From: Chryseobacterium indologenes
GTDB taxonomy: Bacteria; Bacteroidota; Bacteroidia; Flavobacteriales; Weeksellaceae
Direction: 5' to 3'
Assembly (NCBI GenBank): GCA_016025055.1
Contig: CP065590.1
Coordinates: 1,178,001-1,242,000 of the forward strand
DNA: 64,000 nucleotides
Shown: positions 39,866-45,326 of the stretch, in pieces
Position numbering within the stretch: the first letter of the stretch is position 1
Layout of the letters: every line of letters begins with the position of its first letter
Program-made: the position numbers and the translations under genes
The notes under the pieces: generated by a model
Databases searched by the model: none
Told to the model about the DNA's origin: nothing
What the model saw: only the letters and a program-made list of their open reading frames with translations

Positions 39866-41800
39866 CTAATTATTTAAGAATTTTTTCGATTCTTTTCTAT
39901 TTTTGTCTGAATAATTGAGTATAAAGGCTCCTTTAGGAAGTTCTCTCTCAATCTGAATTTCATTTGTTCTGGCGTTGCCTTTCTGGATAAGCTTGCCACT
40001 CAGGTCATAGATCTGGTATTCTCCAAATACATCATTTCCTTTCCCTGCAAGTTTGAGTTTATTTTCTGATTTCACGTATACTACTTTCAATTCTGTAGCA
40101 TTATTTTTGGTATCCGAAGTTCCCAGAGAGCCTACAATTTTCACCGCATAATCTTCCATTTGGCCATATTGTAACTGAGAACAAGGAGTAACATCCGGTA
40201 GATTTGTACCATTATATGTCGCTGCATCTACAGCAACTCTCATTCTTAAGTACGTATCTGTAACCGCTCCAGCCGGAGGAGTAATAGCTGCAGTGACAGC
40301 AGCCCCTGATCCAGATGCCAAAGCAGTGGCTGAAGTATTATTTACGACTAATTCACCATCTTCGAAAGATCCGTTGTTATTATAATCTATCCAAACCTTT
40401 GTTTTGAATTTTTCAGCTTGTGAAAATCCATTTTCAAAATATATTTTTAGACTTGTGCTTGCATTTGATGCGATATCTGTATAGTAAGCTGGTCTAATAC
40501 AAGTCGCAGTTGCATAATCTTCATAAAACTTAGGAGTCGGTTCATCCGAGTCATATCCGTTAGTCATACTGCTGATTCCTCCAAATTCAACTCTTGTAGG
40601 ACCGATAGCGAAGTTATTATTAGTAGGATGAGCGGTACCTGTAGGGTTACATTGAGCAGCCGATATTACAACCGGAGACGGAACCACAACAGAAGGATCC
40701 TTTCCTCCTAAAGAATTAAGCAAATTCTTTCTATATTCCATCATCAACATAAGTGCACGGTCTCTTTGCCCTGCTGTAAACTTTCTGTTGGTATTGGAAT
40801 AATTCATAATATTATATTGTACCCCTTGATAGTTGACACCCGTACAAGGGTTAATAGCTGTATTGGAAGGTGCCGGAAACTGATAATAAGCTGCACCGGA
40901 TACTTCTGTATCACAAACCATATCATTGTCTATTGTACAATCAGTTTGTGCTGGCGGGCAATAGTTTGTGGTACCACTTTGAGCAGCATAATTTCCTCCC
41001 TGAAAAGTATGGTATAATCCAAATGAATGTCCTAACTCATGGGTCAGTGTCGTATCATTTGCATTGGTGATCGTAGCAACTTTCATGAAACTTTCATAAA
41101 AATAATCATATGTCTCCGGGAACCGGGCATATCCCATAAGCCCACCAGAGTTTTGCTGCTGGCCGTTAAACCCAATAACAACATAAATATTAAAATATGA
41201 GGTTTCCGGCCAGTGAGGTGCCAATTCTTTAATTGAATAATCAGGAGCTCCGGTACCAGGATTCGTTGCAGACATCGCTTGTCTTACCCCACTGGCATCG
41301 TATGCAGGAATTGTACTTCCGTTATATCTCACAATTCCATTCGTAGCGGTACATTGTGGTGTTCTTTTTGCCAATACCAGTTTAAACGGAATAACATTCC
41401 CTCCGTCTGCTCCGGGTCCTTCTGCATAAAAGCCATTACCATAAGTGGTGGCATACATTTTATTGGCCCTGTCTATCCAATCTGTAATCTGCTGATCTGT
41501 CAATTTTAAATTGACATTTGATGTTGCATTCGACTCGATAACGTGTACCACAACCGGTATTTCGTATACCTGACCTGTATACAATCCGTTCCAGGAAGTT
41601 CCTCCGCCAACTTTATTAAGATAGGACTGCTTATCAATATTTCTCAATTTAAGTTCTCCTTCTTCCCGTCTTTTTTTGAGTTCAGGAAACTTTGTGTCCA
41701 TCCTTCTCATATCTTCATCAAAGCCACAATAATGTTCCTGCACCTGAGAAAAAGCACTAACAAATAGCAAAACACCTAAAAAGGTAGTAATTTTCTTCAT
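39866..41800 (-). CDS. Secreted M43-family metalloprotease with GEVED and T9SS type A sorting domains
   Basis: A 644-residue secreted protease of the pappalysin-like M43 group. Order: signal peptide (MKKITTFLGVLLFVSAFSQ), short propeptide, catalytic region with the zinc motif HELGHSFGLYHTF (about residue 254) and the Met-turn NIMNYS; then a GEVED-type beta-sandwich (VWIDYNNNGSFEDGE, QYGQMEDYAV, about 470-560); then a type A T9SS sorting domain (GEYQIYDLSGKLIQKG to the C-terminus KKFLNN). A disulfide-rich loop (NYCPPAQTDCTIDNDMVCD) lies near the active site. It should be exported by T9SS as an extracellular protease. The promoter box is at 41830-41837. Confidence 0.92.
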   Translation of the reverse strand: MKKITTFLGVLLFVSAFSQVQEHYCGFDEDMRRMDTKFPELKKRREEGELKLRNIDKQSYLNKVGGGTSWNGLYTGQVYEIPVVVHVIESNATSNVNLKLTDQQITDWIDRANKMYATTYGNGFYAEGPGADGGNVIPFKLVLAKRTPQCTATNGIVRYNGSTIPAYDASGVRQAMSATNPGTGAPDYSIKELAPHWPETSYFNIYVVIGFNGQQQNSGGLMGYARFPETYDYFYESFMKVATITNANDTTLTHELGHSFGLYHTFQGGNYAAQSGTTNYCPPAQTDCTIDNDMVCDTEVSGAAYYQFPAPSNTAINPCTGVNYQGVQYNIMNYSNTNRKFTAGQRDRALMLMMEYRKNLLNSLGGKDPSVVVPSPVVISAAQCNPTGTAHPTNNNFAIGPTRVEFGGISSMTNGYDSDEPTPKFYEDYATATCIRPAYYTDIASNASTSLKIYFENGFSQAEKFKTKVWIDYNNNGSFEDGELVVNNTSATALASGSGAAVTAAITPPAGAVTDTYLRMRVAVDAATYNGTNLPDVTPCSQLQYGQMEDYAVKIVGSLGTSDTKNNATELKVVYVKSENKLKLAGKGNDVFGEYQIYDLSGKLIQKGNARTNEIQIERELPKGAFILNYSDKNRKESKKFLNN

Positions 41801-41837: not shown

Positions 41838-42001
41838 TAATTTTATAATCAAATCATCAAAAAAAATAAAATATTTTCTTAGCATTTTTTTATTTATCCT
41901 AATTTTTTAAAACAACGTTGTATAACAGTAAATTAGACCCCAAACGACAATTACTTGGTAAAACATAATACTATCTTTTACATTGGTATGATTTTTAATA
42001 C

Positions 42002-42009
42002 TACATTTG
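42002..42009 (+). promoter_or_regulatory. -7 promoter box of the DUF4407/Clp-M41 unit
   Basis: TACATTTG, an exact consensus match, 16 bases before the ATG at 42025. Its last three bases are the TTG that opens the longest frame (42007), so that TTG cannot be the real start if this box is used. Confidence 0.65.
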
Positions 42010-42024
42010 TATAAATTTTCTACA

Positions 42025-43095
42025 ATGAAAACAAACCAACAAACTATAAATCAAACGAATCATAAAATAAACTGGTTCCAGAAGTTTCTTATGGTATGTT
42101 CCGGAGGAAACATCCATATTTTAAGAAAGACTCCGAGTGAATGGAATAAATTTTCAGGGATCGGAGGAATTGTACTTTTCACTGCAGTATTTGCTACTCT
42201 CTCTGCAGGATATGCCATGTATACAGTATTTGATAACCTGTGGGCAGCTACAGGATTTGGAATTCTCTGGGGGTTAATGATTTTTAACCTGGACAGGTAT
42301 ATCGTTTCATCCATCAAAAAAACCGGGACATGGTGGAATCAGATTCTGATGGCTATTCCACGTTTGGTACTGGCCACCTTTTTAGGAATTATAATTTCAA
42401 AACCGCTGGAGCTTAAAATTTTTGAAAAAGAAGTAAATAAACAACTGAATACCATTATTCAAAGAAATAAAAAACAGCTTCAGGGAGAAATGAATGGAAG
42501 GATTCTGCAGCAAAGCGGCCCTTTTGAAACGGAGAAAAAACAAATCTCAGAAAAGATTGCTCAATATCAAGTGGCATATGACTCCGCATCCGTAGAACTT
42601 GAAAAAGAAATTCTCGGAAAACAATCAGGTTTAACCAGTGGTAAAGAAGGTTTCGGACCTAATGCCAAACGTAAACAGGAATTAAAAGAACAGCGACGAC
42701 TTGATCTTGAAAATTATCAGAAACAAGCAGCTCCAAGGCTTAACTATCTTGACAAAGAAATCTCCAAAGTATACACCAATCTGGAAACAGAAAGAAAGTC
42801 TACGGAAACTTTTGAAGATAAATTCAACGGATTTGCAGCAAGACTTCAGGCTTTGGATGAACTTGGAAAAAACTCCGCAATTATAGGCCTGGCTGCGGCA
42901 TTTATCATGGGGTTATTTATCTGTCTGGAAATCTCTCCTGTGTTGGTAAAGCTTATTTCGCATGTAGGGCCTTATGATTATCTTCTTGAAAAGACAGAAA
43001 ACGATTTCAGATTATATTCCAAAGAGAAAATTGAAAAAGGAAATGCTTTGACAGATTTCCGTGTTGATGATTTTAAAGATAATTTAAAAAAATAG
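42025..43095 (+). CDS. DUF4407 membrane protein, partner of the Clp-M41 protease gene
   Basis: A 356-residue protein from the ATG at 42025; the longer TTG frame from 42007 starts inside the promoter box. The N-terminal part has a conserved opening (FQKFLMVCSGGNIHILRKTPSEWNKFSGIG) and two closely spaced membrane helices, then a third (ILMAIPRLVLATFLGIIIS). A soluble region of about 150 residues rich in E, K and Q follows and probably forms coiled coil. A fourth helix (AIIGLAAAFIMGLFICLEISPVLVK) precedes a cytosolic tail. This is the DUF4407 layout; the family has no settled function. The next gene begins 14 bases downstream. My inference is that this protein anchors the AAA-protease at the membrane and may present or sense substrates. 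Confidence 0.83.
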   Translation: MKTNQQTINQTNHKINWFQKFLMVCSGGNIHILRKTPSEWNKFSGIGGIVLFTAVFATLSAGYAMYTVFDNLWAATGFGILWGLMIFNLDRYIVSSIKKTGTWWNQILMAIPRLVLATFLGIIISKPLELKIFEKEVNKQLNTIIQRNKKQLQGEMNGRILQQSGPFETEKKQISEKIAQYQVAYDSASVELEKEILGKQSGLTSGKEGFGPNAKRKQELKEQRRLDLENYQKQAAPRLNYLDKEISKVYTNLETERKSTETFEDKFNGFAARLQALDELGKNSAIIGLAAAFIMGLFICLEISPVLVKLISHVGPYDYLLEKTENDFRLYSKEKIEKGNALTDFRVDDFKDNLKK

Positions 43096-43109
43096 CGTAT
43101 TTTTCATAC

Positions 43110-44972
43110 ATGATTATTGACAAAGAAGAAATCAGGAAGAAAAAGAAAAAACTGGACGACTGTAAAGCCTTCCTGAAAAAAGAATTCATCGGAATCGATA
43201 AGATTATTGATGATGTCATGGAATATATCCAGATATGGTATCTTATGCCTGAAATCCTGACACGCCCAGTGGTCATCAACCTTTGGGGAATGACAGGAGT
43301 AGGGAAAACAGATCTGGTGAGAAAGATGGTCCGGTTTCTCGAATTTCAGAATCGTTTTGTTGAAATAGAACTTAGCAATTCCGATGAGACCTCCTGGAGT
43401 AAAAGTGTCTCTGATATCTTCCAAAGCAACGGTTTGAGTGATGAAAAACCAAGCATTGTTCTTTTTGACGAGATTCAACGTTTTAACACTATTGATCCGG
43501 ATGGCATGCCCGTTCCTCAGACCAAATTCACCGATTTCTGGGAACTTTTGAGTGACGGACGCCTCAGCAAGCGGGAACGGGAAGATCTCGAACATTACCT
43601 GTTTTCTTATCTTTTACGTAAAAAAGAAAATGAAAGACGCAAAGTAAACGGCGAAACAGACCTTGATGAGAATCCATATCTTAATTTATGGGATGCCAAA
43701 GAACTTAAAAAATATCTGAGTATGGATGATGATGTAATGAGCATCATTGATATGAAAGAGGAAGATATGATCAAGCTGATTCGTAAAAAGCAGAAAGAAA
43801 AGAAGATTTACGAACCCGTGAATTACAGTAAAATGCTGATTATTATCAGCGGAAATCTGGACGAAGCTTTTCAAATGTCAAAAGAAACAAGCGAGGCAGA
43901 TATAGATGCTAATATTTACCATGCTTTTACCAAAAAAATAACTGTTGTAGATATTAAAAATGCCCTGTCAAGAAAATTTCGCCCTGAACAGGTGGCGAGA
44001 TTCGGAAATATCCATCTGATCTATTTTTCGTTAAAAACGGAAGATTTTCAAAAATTAATTCAAAGGGAAATCAATAATCTAAAACATAATACTAAAACAA
44101 AATTTGGTGTAGGCTTAAAAATAAATAAAAATATTAACGAGCTCATTTACCGAAACGGGGTGTTCCCTGTACAGGGTGTGCGTCCTGTCTTCAGTAGTGT
44201 CGTTGATATTCTGGATACAAATTTGAGTAAGTTTCTTTTTGAAGCGATTATTCACGATGATCCGTCGATAGAGATCAATTACTCTCATGCTGACAAAATC
44301 ATTACCGGTAAAATCGGTGATCGTCTGATCGAAATTCCTTATCTGGGTAAGATTGATAAAATACGGCAGTCTAACCTTCAGGATGCGGTAGCCAATATTA
44401 GTGTTCATGAATGCGGTCACGCAGTATCATATATGCTGTATACAGGCTTTGTTCCTTTACAGCTTAAAAGTAAAGTGGCGAGCAGTTATGCCGCAGGATT
44501 TACGTTTCCGCATCAGATCCACGATACCAAAGAAAGCATTGTCGACAGGATTAAAATTTATCTTGCTGGCGGAATTGCCGAAGAAATTATTTTTGGTGAA
44601 AAAAATGCAAGTATCGGAAGAAGCCATGACCGTGAGCAGGCTACCACTCTTGCTATAGACTATATCCGAAAATATGGTTTTGAAGAAAATTTCCAGGCTA
44701 CTTACAATCTTGAAGATTACCCTCATCGAATGCAACAGCATATTACGGATGAAAGAATTGAAAATTTAATGCAGGAACTGGCCCGAAAAACCCGGGAAGA
44801 TCTCATCTTACATTTTGATTTATTAAAAAACATGAGCAAAACGCTTAGTGAAAAAGGCAGTTTACAACCTAAGGAAATATATGATATAGCCATCAAACAT
44901 CAATTACAAGTAAGCCTTAAAGAAGAAGGCTATTTGCATATTGCCGGCTATCACCATTTACTGAATACATAA
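43110..44972 (+). CDS. Clp/HSP100-like AAA+ ATPase fused to an FtsH-type M41 metallopeptidase
   Basis: A 620-residue cytosolic protein with no membrane helix. Residues 1-410 form an AAA+ module of the ClpB-D2/ClpX/HslU clade: Walker A GMTGVGKT (60-67), Walker B IVLFDE (116-121), sensor-1 region IIISGN, an arginine-finger region FRPEQVARFGN, and sensor-2 GVRP followed by the small C-terminal AAA subdomain. An insert (about 150-225) is highly charged. Residues 420-600 are an M41 peptidase: zinc motif HECGH (433-437), LAGGIAEEIIFG and the third zinc ligand in SHDREQATTLA (D507), the same order and spacing as FtsH. FtsH has its own AAA type and membrane helices in one chain. Here a different AAA clade is used and the membrane part is probably the DUF4407 partner encoded just upstream. 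Confidence 0.85.
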   Translation: MIIDKEEIRKKKKKLDDCKAFLKKEFIGIDKIIDDVMEYIQIWYLMPEILTRPVVINLWGMTGVGKTDLVRKMVRFLEFQNRFVEIELSNSDETSWSKSVSDIFQSNGLSDEKPSIVLFDEIQRFNTIDPDGMPVPQTKFTDFWELLSDGRLSKREREDLEHYLFSYLLRKKENERRKVNGETDLDENPYLNLWDAKELKKYLSMDDDVMSIIDMKEEDMIKLIRKKQKEKKIYEPVNYSKMLIIISGNLDEAFQMSKETSEADIDANIYHAFTKKITVVDIKNALSRKFRPEQVARFGNIHLIYFSLKTEDFQKLIQREINNLKHNTKTKFGVGLKINKNINELIYRNGVFPVQGVRPVFSSVVDILDTNLSKFLFEAIIHDDPSIEINYSHADKIITGKIGDRLIEIPYLGKIDKIRQSNLQDAVANISVHECGHAVSYMLYTGFVPLQLKSKVASSYAAGFTFPHQIHDTKESIVDRIKIYLAGGIAEEIIFGEKNASIGRSHDREQATTLAIDYIRKYGFEENFQATYNLEDYPHRMQQHITDERIENLMQELARKTREDLILHFDLLKNMSKTLSEKGSLQPKEIYDIAIKHQLQVSLKEEGYLHIAGYHHLLNT

Positions 44973-45128
44973 AGAAAAGCAAGAGCTATTTATATACCTG
45001 ACCTTTTAGTTAATTCTGGAAGGTCTTTCTTTACTCCTTCAATGTATAGAAAAGTTAGCCAAACACAACCTGAAATCACAGAAATCTTATTCAATTAAGA
45101 GCAGGAACATTTTTTGCTTTCATTTTAT

Positions 45129-45326
45129 ATGCCTTCAAGTGTTGTCAATAGTTTTGTATATTTTCCTGAAACTGAAATATTGAGAATTATATATCAGTCG
45201 GGAGCAGTATACGATTATATGAAGGTACCGGCAGGCATCTTTGAAAAATTTAAGGCGGCAAGATCCAAAGGTTTTTTCCTCAATAAGGTAATCAAACCAA
45301 AATTCAAATACATCAGAATATCATAA
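45129..45326 (+). CDS. Small KTSC-domain protein
   Basis: A 65-residue protein that is essentially one KTSC domain: PSSVVNSFVYFPETEILRI, then YDYMKVPAGIFEKF and SKGFFLNKVIKPKFKY, the fold named from the C-terminus of some lysyl-tRNA synthetases. The open frame extends to a TTG at 45114, but the ATG at 45129 gives the normal KTSC start (MPSS). It is on the same strand, 156 bases after the Clp-M41 gene, and could be its third partner or independent. KTSC domains are thought to bind nucleic acid or protein; nothing more specific can be read here. Confidence 0.78.
   Translation: MPSSVVNSFVYFPETEILRIIYQSGAVYDYMKVPAGIFEKFKAARSKGFFLNKVIKPKFKYIRIS

Follow-up and report, generated by a model that had tools for sequence, protein, structure and literature searches.

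A Clp/Hsp100-like AAA+ module joined to an M41 peptidase on one chain, in Chryseobacterium and on viral contigs

According to textbooks, M41 peptidases pair with motors of the FtsH clade, which is another AAA clade and is anchored in the membrane, while Clp motors use separate peptidases. What kind of motor, then, drives the M41 peptidase that is encoded in a 64,000-nucleotide stretch of DNA from Chryseobacterium indologenes (contig CP065590.1, positions 1,178,001 to 1,242,000; hereafter, the window), and does it depend on the DUF4407 membrane protein that is encoded just upstream? A first-pass annotation had read the two genes as a split, membrane-linked protease, with a Clp-type ATPase and with DUF4407 in place of the membrane part of FtsH. 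We find that the protease is a fusion of a Clp/Hsp100 D2-type AAA+ module and an M41 peptidase on one chain, and that DUF4407 looks like a neighbor, not a required partner.

The fusion is visible in the 620-residue open reading frame (ORF) itself, in which the Walker A and Walker B motifs, the HECGH zinc site, and the predicted third zinc ligand lie just where the first-pass annotation had put them (Table 1). The Pfam families Peptidase_M41 (E = 2.3e-14) and AAA (E = 9.2e-6) both match above their cut-offs. As judged by profile comparisons, the ATPase half is Clp/Hsp100-like, not FtsH-like: when a profile of the ATPase part from 23 sequences was compared with PDB, the best-ranking matches were Hsp104, a Clp ATPase subunit, ClpE, and ClpC; FtsH was absent from the 54 matches at E ≤ 0.01. 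The annotation's Clp-type call thus holds up, and the ATPase part falls with Clp/Hsp100 instead of with ordinary FtsH AAA domains. The NCBIfam model for FtsH (TIGR01241) reaches 47.8 bits where its cut-off is 600, with its best stretch at residues 428-589, and the model for ClpB scores 44.1 bits against a cut-off of 1232.1, with its best match at residues 237-393. The claim of a ClpB-like small subdomain with a GVRP sensor 2 also stands: of the 23 family members, 19 match ClpB_D2-small at E ≤ 1e-3, although the window protein itself scores under the cut-off (18.9 versus 21.9 bits). In the predicted model, the motor resembles Clp D2 modules and the M41 half resembles FtsH. As had been proposed, a simple hydropathy scan flags no membrane helix in the protease, and just 59 residues precede Walker A. 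In other words, the protein shares with FtsH an M41 peptidase with HExGH and a third Asp ligand, and it lacks the FtsH-type AAA domain, the curated family score, and the N-terminal membrane helices of FtsH; it has the AAA core, D2-small subdomain, arginine finger, and sensor 2 of Clp/Hsp100 D2 modules.

We aligned 23 family members, of which 14 are of the window's type (type A) and 9 are divergent. The Walker B Asp-Glu, the sensor-1 Asn, R297, R358, HExGH, and D507 are kept in all 23, and so is the Walker A lysine (within GK[ST] in 22 members and GKK in L041). R291, which adjoins the arginine finger, is replaced by K in L082, L085, and L086, all three of type A. The Clp counterpart of the FRPEQVAR motif is FRPEFLNR. 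The extra segment before sensor 1, in the position that the pre-sensor-1 hairpin takes in Clp proteins, has 89-94 residues in the 14 type A members, 118-127 in eight of the nine divergent ones, and 22 in L091. All 14 type A members have W96, a candidate for the pore-loop aromatic, but not all of the divergent ones do. Within Chryseobacterium, the median ratio of nonsynonymous to synonymous differences per site (pN/pS) is 0.099 (32 comparisons).

Table 1. Features of the protease and its surroundings, in window coordinates except for the ordinary ftsH.
Feature	Coordinates	Strand	Evidence
Clp-D2-like AAA+ / M41 fusion protease, 620 residues	43110..44972	+	ORF, domain profiles, alignment, predicted model
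AAA+ module (large plus small subdomain), residues 1-405	43110..44324	+	Hsp104/ClpE/ClpC/ClpB profile matches; model resembles Clp D2 modules
Walker A GMTGVGKT, residues 60-67	43287..43310	+	sequence, alignment
Walker B IVLFDE, residues 116-121	43455..43472	+	sequence, alignment
Extra segment, residues ~153-240, from the dGrl stretch to sensor 1	43566..43829	+	alignment
Predicted arginine finger R297 in FRPEQVAR	43998..44000	+	R in 23/23 members
ClpB D2-small-like subdomain, residues 308-384, with sensor-2 R358 in GVRP	44031..44261	+	
M41 metallopeptidase domain, residues ~421-607	44370..44930	+	
Zinc site HECGH, residues 433-437	44406..44420	+	sequence, alignment
Predicted third zinc ligand D507	44628..44630	+	D in 23/23 members
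DUF4407 membrane protein gene, from its ATG	42025..43095	+	PF14362, E 2.1e-92; genus-wide co-directional neighbor
Terminator-like hairpin 3' of the protease gene	45000..45025	+	consensus match only
KTSC gene of the local backbone	45129..45326	+	PF13619, E 7.1e-18; in loci that have the protease and in loci that lack it
Ordinary ftsH of the window's genome	L205:1462-3482; C1 near 1945390-1947206		

Does the fusion occur outside of cellular genomes? When we scanned IMG/VR twice, we obtained 45 and 24 loci that overlap (L113-L181) and, from these, 44 distinct family proteins, with HExGH in 38 and the Walker A motif in 42. The contigs, whose viral status rests mostly on IMG/VR, are up to 548 kilobases (kb) long; several exceed 300 kb, and the longest with a member that has both motifs is 392 kb. 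Of the 39 viral contigs that we tried, 8 had tail-sheath matches (3 above the cut-off) and 31 had none. The PHROG matches among 95 viral neighbors include a clamp loader, dCMP deaminase, thymidylate synthase, SbcC/SbcD-like proteins, and an NAD-dependent ligase, and no partner gene recurs beside the viral members in five or more loci (blastp, E ≤ 1e-5). In the hydropathy scan, 3 of the 23 cellular members and 4 of the 44 viral ones have a flagged segment, in most cases within the enzyme domains.

In our trees, the window's type has its closest relatives among these viral proteins. In a tree with 88 rows (quick search, midpoint root, with L091, L143, and L148 left out), all 21 cellular rows of type A fall into a single clade (Shimodaira-Hasegawa-like approximate likelihood ratio test, SH-aLRT, 100) that is joined to 30 viral rows (98). 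We also built rooted trees for each half from 63 family rows (near-duplicates and some long rows were left out); the outgroups were the ClpB/ClpC and FtsH proteins of five or six genomes. Because both halves of the family separate from these outgroups with support of 100, the trees fit a single Clp-M41 fusion event, as far as outgroups limited to ClpB/ClpC and FtsH can tell. In the tree for the ATPase half, type A lies within a mostly viral clade (support 89, or 95 with L121 outside); the M41 tree resolves little, and in it type A groups with L128 and L133 (support 90). In an approximately unbiased (AU) test with 54 rows (9 long-branched rows were dropped), holding 21 viral rows as a clade was not rejected (p-AU 0.597, with a likelihood 4.13 above the free tree), so cellular and viral sister groups fit equally well.

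The distribution of the protease is patchy. It is found in 5 of 395 genomes in a sample of the phylum at E ≤ 1e-30 (2 type A and 3 divergent), in 16 of 291 genomes of one order (9 type A and 7 divergent, including the centre genome), and in 1 of 128 genomes of another order, which is the centre genome itself. Among plasmids, the window protein matched 7 records and a divergent query matched 126, none covering 80% of the query; all 7 of the former and the best 10 of the 126 are matches to the M41 part. Similarly, searches of isolated phages with three queries gave 2, 0, and 5 records, all to the M41 part, with no full-length relative. The database names for family members include "peptidase M41", "cell division protease FtsH", "FtsH 3", "AAA family ATPase", and "hypothetical protein". 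We found no description of a Clp-M41 fusion in the literature on M41, Hsp100, WYL and defense, or jumbo-phage proteases (coverage of preprints was sparse). Passages of an overview of jumbo phages name ClpP, ClpS, ClpA, ClpX, and SprT-like peptidases, and its main text contains neither "FtsH" nor "M41" (PMC7824862).

If DUF4407 took the place of the FtsH membrane part, as had been suggested, then the two genes should travel together. Among 118 Chryseobacterium genomes (with the protease called at E ≤ 1e-60 and DUF4407 above its profile cut-off), DUF4407 is present in all 118 (in G454, as two pieces with stops), the protease is in 38, and 80 genomes have DUF4407 without the protease. Where both are present, DUF4407 is directly upstream in 32 of 32 named loci, and the distance from the end of the DUF4407 profile match to the protease start, on the same strand, is 113-114 bases in 38 of 38 genomes (coordinates were compared by eye); the 32 loci overlap the 38 genomes, so these two sets are not independent. 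All 10 of the loci without the protease that we read keep DUF4407 and the backbone around it, with parts absent in some. The order of this backbone is ruvC, DUF4407, a tail-collar-like gene, a secreted gene, KTSC, M43, and guaB ("tail-collar", "secreted", and "M43" are names that we assigned by eye). A tree of DUF4407 genes (33 rows with the protease and 28 without) needs at least four changes in the presence of the protease, of which well-supported branches force two, and its earliest branches lack the protease. What fits best is one gain and about three losses of the protease within Chryseobacterium; a single gain is favored because the insertion site is identical.

Outside of the genus, no DUF4407 gene lies beside the protease at any of 12 loci (L028, L031, L036, L077-L082, and L084-L086, with proteases that are 53-67% identical), as judged from blastp and ORF lists that reach just 365 bases upstream in L084 and ~2 kb in L078, and with a noisy ORF set in L031. 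In 10 of these 12 genomes, DUF4407 is not above the cut-off at all, with weak sub-threshold matches in three of the ten and with three of the DUF4407-negative genomes just 81-84% complete. The other two, a Cloacibacterium metagenome-assembled genome (G860) and Neolewinella (G861), carry DUF4407 outside of the 5 kb on either side of the protease. Nor does anything else recur: no Pfam family is in more than 2 of the 64 neighbors at the 12 loci, among the 25 families shown of 116. We therefore reject a partnership with DUF4407 as a general feature of the protease: none was found beside the 12 relatives, and across the genus DUF4407 does without the protease in most genomes. Outside of Chryseobacterium, such a lack of association is an outcome that the first-pass annotation itself had named as refuting its reading. 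In passages of the literature that name DUF4407, the mentions are incidental.

Within the window, some of the first-pass description of the locus stands. DUF4407 ends 14 bases before the protease, as was stated, and the hydropathy scan gives its protein three candidate membrane segments; because of the 14-base spacing, the two genes are likely co-transcribed. A single consensus promoter before DUF4407 had also been reported, and a sigma-70 scan finds none upstream of that gene. There is a TTG-N16-TACATTTG motif within 41983-42025, 5' of DUF4407, with TAnnTTTG at 42002-42009, which resembles the Bacteroidota promoter consensus. The KTSC gene does follow the protease, 156 bases downstream, but as a linked component it fails: a terminator-like hairpin (a consensus match only) separates the two genes. 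Of the 33 occupied loci, 24 contain KTSC, and in only 6 is it the first of the sought genes past the protease; 5 of the 10 loci that lack the protease have it as well, so we reject it as a component. We also note that a secreted metalloprotease-like gene (M43-like by eye; 39866-41800) precedes DUF4407, and that similar genes are on the opposite side of the locus in some related genomes.

Does the protease cluster with defense genes, as might be expected for the role in defense that had been considered? For type A, we do not see it: none of 12 type A loci has a WYL gene nearby, and their 64 neighbors include no recurring defense family (14 PADLOC families with one member each, including AriA- and Mad-like matches and metabolic enzymes). 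The nine divergent loci that we read, whose proteases are ~27-31% identical over the aligned part, do give a hint. A gene for a WYL-domain regulator adjoins the protease or is one gene off in five of them (L041:5992-9987, L042:1720-6506, L043:6642-9848, L087:4882-8054, and L091:4599-7357), although the first three loci suggested the pattern, which leaves an independent count of 2 of 6, and L088 and L090 are near contig ends. Among 60 neighbors of the divergent branch, the PADLOC matches include WYL (5), Cas3c (5), Orf5 (2), SspE (2), HEC-06 (2), and PDC-S26, AbiEi, and AbiEii (1 each), among the 25 families shown of 63; these comparisons with type A are of raw counts. The Orf5 and SspE matches are probably GmrSD-like proteins. 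Since the type A control has neither WYL nor a recurring defense family, the hint belongs to the divergent branch and not to the window's type, and we consider the WYL-linked loci to be a candidate defense module. Some of the WYL-linked loci have GmrSD-, AbiE-, or PD-(D/E)XK-like neighbors. Also, L091:7982-9331 encodes a second, shorter P-loop protein on the other strand, 23% identical to the ATPase half over 420 residues, near the divergent member without most of the extra segment.

How would such a protein work? We think that it is probably a stand-alone, soluble ATP-dependent metalloprotease, with a Clp/Hsp100 D2-type motor and M41 on one chain. If it acts as FtsH and Clp do, it would assemble into a ring of six copies, unfold its substrates at the expense of ATP, and feed them into an M41 chamber; substrates might be chosen via the short N-terminus, the extra segment before sensor 1, or adaptors. 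Its most likely role would be regulatory or quality-control proteolysis in the cytosol, beside ordinary FtsH and Clp. In Chryseobacterium, the gene would have been gained once, directly after DUF4407, and then lost in some. Several observations weigh against this account. A canonical aromatic pore loop is not obvious, and much of the extra segment is poorly predicted, with a low predicted local distance difference test score (pLDDT). Synonymous sites are near saturation, and the ratio of substitution rates (dN/dS) could be computed for just 2 of the 32 comparisons. In the window's genome, the ordinary ftsH is split into two overlapping frames that diverge immediately before HEAGH, through either an assembly error or a real frameshift, so the FtsH of this genome cannot be shown to be intact. 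And the fixed distance from DUF4407 to the protease (38 of 38 genomes) would likewise fit a functional pair within Chryseobacterium.

That spacing, together with the three candidate membrane segments, is what could be said for DUF4407 as the anchor of a soluble AAA-M41 ring, replacing the membrane part of FtsH. We find this quite improbable, given that 80 Chryseobacterium genomes and all 10 of the protease-less loci that we read keep DUF4407 without the protease and that the 12 relatives outside of the genus have no DUF4407 beside them, with 10 of their genomes lacking it above the cut-off. It is harder still to believe in an ordinary FtsH paralog whose AAA domain has drifted: the M41 half does match FtsH, and the names "cell division protease FtsH" and "FtsH 3" point that way, but the ATPase part matches Clp/Hsp100 and not FtsH, no membrane helix is predicted, and TIGR01241 scores far below its cut-off, with its best stretch in the second half of the protein.

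An alternative that we consider unlikely, if less so, sees the family as passing back and forth between large phages and Bacteroidota, with a cellular type that either breaks down phage or host-takeover proteins or is a domesticated phage enzyme. The 44 proteins on viral contigs, the joining of type A with 30 viral rows, and the WYL and other defense-like genes near divergent loci are consistent with this. But type A lacks that defense context, the 21-row viral clade was not rejected, isolated phages gave no full-length relative for three queries, and most of the viral contigs tried have no tail-sheath match. We would go a little further for a broader scenario, which is still speculative and which we doubt: after one fusion event, the family moved between very large phages and Bacteroidota, the phages keep it as a one-gene degradation machine, the divergent branch became a defense module under WYL control, and the Chryseobacterium type is a captured and domesticated phage protease. 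Overall, we favor the stand-alone, soluble protease.

A soluble, one-gene family with swapped pairing would show that motor and peptidase can be swapped for one another's counterparts as modules. Since the family also occurs on viral contigs, large phages may carry a complete ATP-dependent protease of their own, which makes it possible to ask whether they break down host proteins by this route. In the meantime, database entries in this family that are named "FtsH" are misleading.

Finally, how does the protease compare with known systems? DolB of the Dodola defense system is not known to have an M41 domain. In PADLOC-DB 2.0.0, a library that newer systems fall outside of, nothing matches most of the length of the protease, and the matches are to the P-loop region: DolB at residues 9-127 (7.2e-8), PDC-M37B at 8-91, PDC-S01 at 54-126, and TRIP13 at 55-123. 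Dodola's dolB carries the ClpB-type AAA domains PF07724 and PF10431 (PMC10924106). The likeness to DolB is thus in the ClpB-type AAA, but it spans only the P-loop region, and the neighboring DUF4407 and KTSC proteins have no PADLOC match. With the D2 modules of ClpA, ClpB, ClpC, and ClpE and with Skd3/CLPB, the family shares the large and small AAA+ subdomains, the arginine finger, and the G-x-RP sensor 2; it differs in having a single AAA module with a fused peptidase and in the extra segment before sensor 1, which is 89-127 residues long in 22 of 23 members. Like FtsH, YME1, and AFG3L2, it has an M41 peptidase with HExGH and an Asp ligand, with motor then peptidase on one chain, but the Chryseobacterium protease has a motor of the Clp/Hsp100 D2 kind and lacks a predicted membrane helix. 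As for ClpXP, ClpAP, and ClpCP, in which the motor docks on a separate ClpP peptidase, the Chryseobacterium protease carries its own M41 peptidase on its chain.

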